Assembly (NCBI RefSeq): GCF_014252295.1
Contig: NZ_CP059215.1
Location: 389,681-453,680, forward strand
Source: Blattabacterium cuenoti
GTDB lineage: Bacteria > Bacteroidota > Bacteroidia > Flavobacteriales > Blattabacteriaceae
Length of the DNA: 64,000 nucleotides
Direction: 5' to 3'
How positions within the stretch are numbered: the stretch's first letter is position 1; every line of letters starts with the position of its first letter. The notes under the pieces are model-generated. The model was not told the origin of the DNA, did not search any database, and worked only from the letters and a program-made list of their open reading frames with translations. The translations under genes were made by a program, and so were the position numbers. Positions 3,062-29,992 of the stretch are shown piece after piece.

Positions 3062-3178
3062 TTAACCCTGTTTTTGTTTAAATCTAGGATTTTTTTTATT
3101 AATAATCCGTAAACGTCCTTTTCTTCTAATAATTTTACAATTATCAGTCCTTTTTTTTAGAGAAGATCTTACTTTCAT
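3062..3178 (-). CDS. rpmJ: 50S ribosomal protein L36 (38 residues)
   Basis: This small gene encodes [14 protein letters not shown] followed by [16 protein letters not shown] and a PRFKQKQG end, which is ribosomal protein L36. Only one of the four zinc-binding Cys/His positions of the classical form remains (Cys14), so it is the zinc-free type common in Bacteroidetes. It sits between infA (43-base gap) and rpsM (nine-base gap), the expected position. The ATG is the only plausible start. Confidence 0.93.
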
Positions 3179-5328: not shown

Positions 5329-5815
5329 TATACACTTTTTTTATAGAAATTCCTCTTTGCTTGGAAATAATATGAACATCTCTCATTTTACTTAACGCTT
5401 TAATAGTTGCCTTAATCACATTATGATGATTAGAAGATCCTTTAGATTTTGATAACACATTTCTTAACCCTGCTGCTTCAAGAACAGCTCTTAAAGGTCC
5501 TCCTGCTATAATTCCTGTTCCATCAGATGCAGGTTTAATAAGAACACGTGCTCCTCCATATTTAGCTTCTTGATCATGAGGAATAGTACCATTAAAAATA
5601 CAAACCTTACAAAGGTTTCTTTTAGCCTGTTCTCCTGCTTTATGAATTGCATCAGGAGCTTCTTTTGACTTTCCAAAACCATAACCTACAACTCCGTTCT
5701 CATTTCCTTTTATAACAATAGCACTAAAACTAAAATACCTTCTACCTTTAGTGACTTTGCATACTCTTGTTACTCCAACCAATTTTTCTTTTAATTCCAA
5801 TCCCGTAGATTTCAT
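5321..5815 (-). CDS. rpsE: 30S ribosomal protein S5
   Basis: S5 acts in decoding fidelity and mRNA unwinding at the 30S entry site. The 164 residues contain the double-stranded-RNA-binding-like domain ([19 protein letters not shown], about residues 12-30) and the C-terminal domain with [18 protein letters not shown] near residues 99-116. Length is slightly short but complete. It follows rplR by 24 bases and overlaps rplO by eight. Confidence 0.96.
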
Positions 5816-27098: not shown

Positions 27099-27419
27099 TT
27101 ATGAATTTTGATTCCAAAGATTCTCTATATTATAATATAATCTTGATTCTTTTTGAAAAATGTGTACGACAATAGAAATATAATCTACTAATATCCATTT
27201 TTTACTTTTCAATCCTTCTATATGCCAAGGTTTTTCTTGTAATTTCTGAAATATAGTATTTTCTATAGATTGAGAAATGGCATAAATTTGATTGTAAGAA
27301 TCTCCGTTACAAATAACAAAATAATCACAAATAAAATTTTTTCTATTTTTTAAATTTATAATGGAAATATCTTTTCCTTTAACCATTTGAATTCCTTCTA
27401 TGATTTTTTTTAATAACAA
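27099..27419 (-). CDS. rsfS: Ribosomal silencing factor RsfS
   Basis: RsfS binds L14 and blocks subunit joining during starvation. The 106 residues contain VKGKDISIINLKNRKNFICD, YFVICNGDSYNQIYAISQSI and PWHIEGLKSKKWILVDYISI, a diverged version of the family core. The usual aspartate of YVICSGSS-type motifs is preserved in CDYFVICNGDS. It is directly upstream of ftsH, the normal Bacteroidetes neighbour, and divergent from the biotin ligase gene. Confidence 0.9.
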   Translation of the reverse strand: MLLKKIIEGIQMVKGKDISIINLKNRKNFICDYFVICNGDSYNQIYAISQSIENTIFQKLQEKPWHIEGLKSKKWILVDYISIVVHIFQKESRLYYNIENLWNQNS

Positions 27420-27530: not shown

Positions 27531-28279
27531 ATGAAAAAATATATTTGGCCTATACATTTAATTCTATTACAAAAAGTTAATTCTACAAACCAATATTCTA
27601 GAAGATATATTTATAAAAAAAAAATTGGATAGTTATTTGGTCAACAAATCAAATTCAAGGAATAGGAGTTGGAAAAAATTTATGGAATACAGAAAAAGAA
27701 AAAAATTTAACTTTTAGTATTATATTCAAACCAGTAATTTTTTTCCCCATTGAGAAAAAATATATAATTAATATTATTACGAGTAATGCAATTCATAAAA
27801 TTTTATCAAAAAAATATAAGAAAGAATTTTGGATTAAATGGCCTAATGATATTTTTTTATGTGGAAAAAAAATAGGAGGAATTTTAATAGAAAATAGTAT
27901 TTTTTTAAAAAAAATTCATACTTCTATTATTGGAGTTGGTTTAAATGTTTATCAAACAAAATTTGAAAAAGAATGGAATGCTTCTTCTTTAATAGAAATT
28001 TGTAATACAAATTTCGAACTAGATGACATTTTTTATAATATTATATATTTCATTCAAAAAGAATACTTACTTTTCATAAGTAAAGGAGAAAATTATATTA
28101 GAAAATATTACATTGACCATCTTTATTTAAAAGATAAAAATTCTATTTTTTATGTATACAAAACAAATAGTTACATTCAAGGTATAATACGGACAGTAAC
28201 AGATCAAGGTTATTTAATTGTTGAATTTAACAAAAAATTTTATTCTTTCCATCAAAAGGAAATAAAATTTATTAATTAA
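27531..28279 (+). pseudogene. birA: Biotin-protein ligase, frame broken at a 10-A run
   Basis: An ATG at 27531 opens MKKYIWPIHLILLQKVNSTN, including the STN motif of BirA, but the frame stops at a TAG (27630) just after a run of ten A at 27615-27624. In the next frame the enzyme continues without a break to 28279: WIVIWSTNQIQGIGVGKN, LTFSIIFKP, WIKWPNDIFLCGKKIGGILI, IIGVGLNVYQ and a C-terminal domain. One added A (11) would join the two parts, giving about 249 residues. The long downstream part contains no Met. Either the gene is decaying, polymerase slippage rescues it, or the run was miscounted. It would biotinylate acetyl-CoA carboxylase-type carrier proteins. Confidence 0.88.
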
Positions 28280-29992
28280 CTATTTCTTATTCTTAATACT
28301 TTTTTCTTGAATTTTTACAAGAATTTTATTTTCATCTAACATAAACTTCTTTATTAAAAATAAAAAACAAATATTAATAATATTAGAAGTAAAATAATAT
28401 AAAGATAAAGCAGAAGCGTAACTATTTATAAATAATAGCATAATAACAGGCATCAAATACAATATGAAATTTATATCTGGAATAGAATTTGAATTCTTTC
28501 CATTTTGAGAAATTTCTTTTTTATCATTATTACTTAATTTTGTATAAAACAATAATGCTAGTGAATATAATAAAGTAAGTAAACTTACATGATTTCCGTA
28601 AAAAGGAATAAAAAAAGGTAATTCAATAATTGAATCATATGATGTTAAATCTTCTACCCATAAAAAAGATTTTCCTCTTAAATTAATTATAGTAGGAAAA
28701 AATTTAAATAATGAATAAAAAATAGGAATTTGAAATAATGTAGAGATACATCCTGACATTGGACTTACTCCCGCTTTCCTATATAATTCCATCATTTTTC
28801 TTTGTTTTTGAAAAGAATTTTCATTATTTCTATATTCATTGTTTAATTTTTCTATTTCTGGCCGAATCAATTTCATGATAGCACTCAACTTATACTGCTT
28901 ATAAGTAATTGGAGATAATATCATTTTTACTACTATAGTCATTAAAATAATGATAACACCATAGTTCAAATTTGTTTTTTCCAAAAATTGAAAAATTACT
29001 AGAAAAAAATATTTATTAATCCATTTTAAAAAACCCCATCCGAATGGAATAATATTTTCAAATTCGTTTTTGTACTTTCTTAATAAATTAAAATCTAAAG
29101 GACCAAAATAAAAACGAAAAGAAAAATCAATTTCTTTATTTTCATCATTTTTTAGATAAGTTTTAAACTGAATTCTTTTCAAAAAATTTCCTAAAGAAAA
29201 ATTATCAGATCGAATAAAAACGTTTTTTAATATTTTTTCTGGTATAAATATACAAGCAAAAAATTGTTGTTTGTAAGCAATCCAATTTATATTAGATATA
29301 TTTTTTTCTTCTGTTTTTTTTTCAGATAAATATTTTACAGATGCAAAATCTTTATTAAGATTAGAATAATATGCTTGAGTGTAAGAATTTTCCCAATTTC
29401 TATCCTTTTCCAAGGATAAAATTTTTTGGTCCAAATTGATAGAAACTAATTTTTTATAAGGAAAAAAATTTGTTGTTTTTACAGAAAATCCAATATCATA
29501 TTGGTTTTTACTACCAATTTCATATATATAATCTAAAAATCCTTTTCCTAAAGGACTTTTTGCTCTCATTATAAGAATTTTAGTGCCTTTTTTTTTATTT
29601 TTAAAAAAAATAGGTTGAAAAAATAAATTTTCTGTATTAATATTCAATCCTTTTTTGTTTATAAAGGACATTCTATATAAAAGACTAGAATTTTTTACTA
29701 AAAAAAGATTTTTTGCATGATACGATAATGAAGTATCATACGCTTTATATTTTTTTAGAAGAACTTCATTTATTATTCCTCCTATATTAGATATTCTTAA
29801 TCTTAAAACATTATTTTCTAATAAAAAAAAATTATTTTTTTCTTTCCTAAAAAGAACGTCTTTTTTATAATTAAAAAATTCCTTATTTACTTTGTATTCT
29901 TTTTCTTTATTAAGAAATGTAAAAATAGTTAAAATTAACAATATAAGAAACAATCCTATTATAGAATTATAATCTAAATGTTTATTCTTCAT
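28280..29992 (-). CDS. yidC: Membrane protein insertase YidC
   Basis: Inserts and folds inner-membrane proteins, alone or with Sec. The 570 residues show an N-terminal membrane segment (about 10-25), a large periplasmic domain (about 50-310) and the C-terminal insertase core with GVIIILMTIVVKMILSPITY, RKAGVSPMSGCISTLFQIPI, the segment around LTSYDS, and a last helix pair. Slightly shorter than free-living relatives. Its stop abuts that of birA with no gap, and its start overlaps the pyrG end by four bases. Confidence 0.95.
   Translation of the reverse strand: MKNKHLDYNSIIGLFLILLILTIFTFLNKEKEYKVNKEFFNYKKDVLFRKEKNNFFLLENNVLRLRISNIGGIINEVLLKKYKAYDTSLSYHAKNLFLVKNSSLLYRMSFINKKGLNINTENLFFQPIFFKNKKKGTKILIMRAKSPLGKGFLDYIYEIGSKNQYDIGFSVKTTNFFPYKKLVSINLDQKILSLEKDRNWENSYTQAYYSNLNKDFASVKYLSEKKTEEKNISNINWIAYKQQFFACIFIPEKILKNVFIRSDNFSLGNFLKRIQFKTYLKNDENKEIDFSFRFYFGPLDFNLLRKYKNEFENIIPFGWGFLKWINKYFFLVIFQFLEKTNLNYGVIIILMTIVVKMILSPITYKQYKLSAIMKLIRPEIEKLNNEYRNNENSFQKQRKMMELYRKAGVSPMSGCISTLFQIPIFYSLFKFFPTIINLRGKSFLWVEDLTSYDSIIELPFFIPFYGNHVSLLTLLYSLALLFYTKLSNNDKKEISQNGKNSNSIPDINFILYLMPVIMLLFINSYASALSLYYFTSNIINICFLFLIKKFMLDENKILVKIQEKSIKNKK

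Follow-up and report, generated by a model that had tools for sequence, protein, structure and literature searches.

The window analysed here is a 64,000-nucleotide stretch of a Blattabacterium cuenoti genome (hereafter G000; 624,952 bases in one contig), in which birA, the gene for biotin protein ligase, is interrupted at a poly(A) run. An ATG at position 27531 opens a reading frame of 33 codons (MKKYIWPIHLILLQKVNSTNQYSRRYIYKKKIG) that is ended by a TAG at 27630-27632, just beyond a run of exactly 10 A at 27615-27624 (A10), while the next frame is open from this run to a TAA at 28279 (218 codons). A preliminary sequence-only reading of the window had described this split, and all of its coordinates proved exact, as did its statement that the remainder of BirA is open to 28279 with the WPND, GGILI and GVGLN motifs in the next frame. 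Its proposal that one extra A would rejoin the two parts was also borne out, since the added base yields KKK-N-W, as in relatives that carry 11 A (A11). The features of the locus, in window coordinates, are:

27099-27419, minus strand: rsfS-like gene, divergent neighbour, unbroken control (named by sequence resemblance)
27531-27632, plus strand: 5' part of birA, from the ATG to the premature TAG, 33 amino acids, aligned with the intact birA of the sister genome G021
27582-27590, plus strand: STN biotin-site motif, on the 5' part
27615-27624, plus strand: A10 run, the proposed slippage site; also A10 in G017, G010 and G042, and A11, in frame, in G059, G055 and G004
27623-28279, plus strand: 3' part of birA, in the next frame, 218 amino acids to the TAA, with no in-frame ATG, GTG or TTG
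27630-27632, plus strand: premature TAG in the ATG frame
27659-27676, plus strand: GIGVGK, in the position of the GRGxxG biotinyl-AMP loop, with the Arg lost
27836-27850, plus strand: KWPND motif of biotin protein ligase, read directly and aligned to solved BirA chains
27875-27889, plus strand: GGILI motif, read directly and aligned to solved BirA chains
27932-27946, plus strand: GVGLN motif, read directly and aligned to solved BirA chains
28280-29992, minus strand: yidC-like gene, convergent with birA and directly adjacent to it, unbroken control (named by sequence resemblance)

Three more candidate splits, at window positions 3170, 10541 and 44734, were discarded as antisense or stop-to-stop open reading frames that do not correspond to genes. 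No relatives of the window sequence were found among viral contigs.

The 3' part of birA alone scored 100.4 bits against the NCBIfam birA_ligase profile TIGR00121, above the cut-off of 83.1, and 45.6 bits against Pfam PF03099; the intact birA of G021 reached 116.6 bits against TIGR00121. The first Arg of the GRGxxG loop is absent from G000, and an alignment count found it in only 2 of 49 Blattabacterium genomes (G014 and G053), a loss that affects split and intact birA alike. The BirA family name is based on the profile score, and catalysis is assumed from the selection described below. The AccB client is retained in G000, where VIEAMKLFN carries the EAMKL biotin site beside a biotin carboxylase gene, and biotinyl/lipoyl domains are present in all 49 genomes. 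As the biotin pathway is missing from both host and symbiont (PMC9603385), biotin must be supplied from elsewhere, and the need for its ligation remains.

The comparison set comprised these 49 Blattabacterium genomes, with one genome representing each species. birA is kept in every one of them, with its frame whole in 43 and split in six. The splits occupy seven places, all of them in runs of at least 10 A, and the gene is broken nowhere else. G000, G017, G010 and G042 are split by an A10 at the same codon, and G042 carries an additional, second frameshift at an A12. G057 is split at an A12 in a different place, and G007 at an A10 close to the 3' end, where the frame would be restored by the removal of one A or the addition of two, not by the addition of one. 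Over the 49 genes, 7 of the 23 runs of at least 10 A are out of frame, as are none of 21 A9 runs, none of 79 A8 runs and none of 8 runs of at least 10 T. The comparison of run length between relatives, suggested when the split was first noticed, gave A10 in G017, G010 and G042, and A11 in frame at the same site in G059, G055 and G004. Because three further genomes carry this A10 at the equivalent codon, with both sides conserved, the split is beyond chance.

As a control we used five neighbouring genes from the same 49 genomes, named by resemblance cdsA, ftsH, rsfS, yidC and pyrG. None of their 56 runs of at least 10 A, and none of their 17 runs of at least 10 T, splits a frame. The difference between birA (7 of 23 A runs) and its neighbours (0 of 56) was significant (Fisher P=8e-5), and remained so when only five independent birA events were counted (P=1e-3). 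Across eight syntenic 64-kb stretches, few other splits at A runs were seen, namely those of clpX in G042 and coaE in G057. A-run breaks exist outside birA, yet birA is enriched for them.

In trees built from five concatenated neighbour genes, G017, G010 and G042 formed a clade with 100% bootstrap, and the A10 common to the three is best read as inherited. In G021, the sister of G000, birA is unbroken and the site lacks a long run; for this reason the A10 of G000 is probably a second event, independent of the loss in the G017/G010/G042 clade. The larger clade around these genomes includes G059 and G055 but not G004. The simplest reading of these run lengths is that the ancestor had an A11 from which one A was lost twice, once in G000 and once before G017, G010 and G042 diverged; a single old loss followed by several reversions would be a less simple history.

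The part of birA that lies 3' of the run is under purifying selection in this clade, with dN/dS values of 0.242, 0.329 and 0.200 that are similar to those of intact birA pairs (0.19-0.38), and neutrality was rejected for it (P between 2e-5 and 1e-10). When evolution without selection was simulated at the observed dS, under an assumed mutation bias, about 12 stops were predicted over the clade and about 7 apiece for the G042 and G017 branches; none is observed. Accumulating stops in relatives, which the sequence-only reading had named, together with cDNA holding only 10 A, as evidence against rescue, are therefore missing from the G017/G010/G042 clade. Split birA displays neither the relaxed selection nor the further stops and indels of a pseudogene; the sole further indel in the clade is the second frameshift of G042, which likewise lies in an A run. 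On the terminal branch of G000, distance arithmetic with G017 or G059 as the outgroup gave a dS of about 0.26-0.32 and a dN/dS of about 0.20-0.29, by which measure birA is constrained during most of that branch. Judged from these rates, long-dead genes are excluded, and the break in G000 remains undated by them.

Neither piece of birA alone should be an enzyme, since STN precedes the run while KWPND and GGILI follow it. In addition, the G000 gene has no in-frame ATG, GTG or TTG 3' of the run, although G017 and G010 do have in-frame start codons there. With no start codon behind the run and the motifs divided between the pieces, two-piece expression in G000 is unlikely, and we set it aside.

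We consider it probable that G000 birA is a functional gene whose frame is rescued by transcriptional slippage at the A10. Of the possibilities raised by the sequence-only reading (rescue, recent breakage or sequencing error), rescue is favoured because the A10 is shared by three sister species under purifying selection and because every birA break lies in a long A run. An ancestral A11 would have lost one base to leave the A10 in the DNA, on which RNA polymerase would slip, adding one A (or four) to a fraction of the transcripts. These corrected transcripts would encode whole BirA, reading through the run as KKK-N-W, and could suffice for an enzyme in low demand, with AccB as its client, so that selection would maintain the protein sequence although the gene itself remains out of frame. 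Between STN and the next conserved strand, the run encodes a segment that is rich in Lys and in which the gain or loss of a residue may be tolerated; in the 49-genome alignment this segment does differ in length across the genus, so sloppy repair should be tolerated there. The slippage itself, with its direction and yield, is what we infer.

The anatomy of the gene is that of known slippage-rescued genes, one frameshift that lies within a poly(A) run, the gene being open elsewhere. This frameshift has been kept across species without decay in G017, G010 and G042, a state that G000 shares, probably through a separate origin. Corrected transcripts at poly(A) runs make up 12-50% in aphid and ant endosymbionts (PMC5009743), and 151 of 157 transcription insertions in Buchnera fall in homopolymer runs (PMC5574713). 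Several points count against rescue. The same genome-wide Buchnera survey observed no frame-restoring transcription error (PMC5574713). The double frameshift of G042 and the opposite shift of G007 would mean that rescue in those genomes is less efficient or different. The break in G000 is probably independent of that in the clade, so that the clade does not give its age. The G017 assembly is defective at long A runs, and the Arg has been lost from the biotinyl-AMP loop in most of the genus.

An identical protein would result if ribosomes, rather than RNA polymerase, slipped by -1 on A AAA AAA in the mRNA. The 0-frame sequence TAT AAA AAA AAA ATT contains this heptamer, from which a -1 slip leads to KKK-N-W, and the shift suits G000, G017, G010, G042 and G057. 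It fails to explain G007, which requires the opposite shift, and the 40-60 bases 3' of the run showed neither a stable stem-loop nor one common to the split genomes (z from -0.5 to +1.4). On that result we rejected programmed -1 frameshifting with a stem-loop; ribosomal slippage in general is unlikely. We find it quite unlikely that birA is instead a young pseudogene, A11 being a run that often loses a base, as would have happened lately in G000 and, separately, in the other split genomes. Such losses may come easily, given that three relatives have an A11 at the site, and both the intact gene of the sister G021 and the second frameshift of G042 fit a recent break. Three sister species would nevertheless need the same late and separate loss while G059, G055 and G004 were spared, no comparable loss is seen in the 56 long A runs of the neighbours, and the AccB client is still present. 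For G000 taken alone, a recent break is similarly improbable.

Long A runs mutate fast, and among relatives this run is either A10 or A11; genome copies within a bacteriocyte might therefore carry both lengths, with the A11 copies making the enzyme and the assembly reporting the majority. This is very unlikely, as four separate genomes have A10 as their consensus, whereas a mixture under selection should have reached A11 somewhere in the clade. Least probable of all is the sequencing or assembly error in the homopolymer that the sequence-only reading had raised: the G017 assembly does fail at long A runs in other genes (a gap of 117 A plus N, and an odd repeat in dnaN), which shows that assemblies of this kind are fallible there, but four assemblies concur on an A10 at one and the same codon, and the neighbours' long A and T runs, all of them in frame, make random homopolymer error unlikely.

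Transcriptional slippage at the A10, our preferred explanation, has precedents in Buchnera and Blochmannia, where poly(A) frameshifts are rescued in this way (Tamas et al. 2008; Wernegreen et al. 2010; as cited in PMC5009743, PMC3017870 and PMC3971599). As those cases are presented there, they share with birA an AT-rich insect endosymbiont, a one-base poly(A) indel with both sides open, and persistence across species without decay. They differ in phylum and gene, birA belonging here to a member of the Bacteroidota in which this one gene was frameshifted on about five separate occasions, and in that the birA case is known from DNA. Blochmannia vafer (dnaX, dnaG, pth and others; PMC3017870) presents the same anatomy, with one frameshift common to two species and others independent, in another lineage and other genes; slippage was inferred there too. 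Closer in lineage is the flavobacterial endosymbiont Walczuchella monophlebidarum, whose homopolymer-tract pseudogenes are possibly still working according to the authors (PMC3971599); the relevant passage of that report gives no per-gene phylogenetic or selection test of the kind given here. The interrupted tssM of Citrobacter rodentium is likewise described as rescued by transcriptional frameshifting, although this bacterium is not an endosymbiont and two length variants are made (PMC4256274). A literature search covering few subscription papers found no report of birA slippage in Blattabacterium. Slippage at birA would take poly(A) frame rescue beyond gammaproteobacterial symbionts to an endosymbiont of the Bacteroidota, and the 49-genome series shows one codon in three states (in frame, out of frame and interrupted), making the cost and yield of slippage comparable between sister species.

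A wider reading, which we offer as a tentative possibility, is that runs of at least 10 A form a standing heritable mode for low-demand essential genes, with the DNA out of frame, the RNA in frame and the slipping fraction setting the dose. On that reading birA would have entered the mode about five times, and clpX, coaE and dnaN would be in it in single genomes. Genes labelled as pseudogenes in Blattabacterium, namely dnaN, gltX and atpG (PMC6039017), may be working genes.

Further irregularities were noted in the other genomes. The clpX split in G042 lies at an A12 (L118 near 130) and the coaE split in G057 at an A10 (L127 near 3180), and dnaN, which encodes the sliding clamp, is split in G049 (L130:930) and G002 (L131:543) at A11 and A12 runs. 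In G017, a local repeat flanked by A11 and A13 runs puts dnaN out of frame (L129:549-660), which may be an assembly fault, and a miaA-like gene (L075 near 14041) runs into 117 A and then N, an assembly gap. A bamD-like gene of G042 (L118 near 5490-5580) is broken away from long runs and resembles a true pseudogene. Finally, metG is unbroken in 49 of 49 genomes, though it has been called a pseudogene in the P. fuliginosa symbiont.
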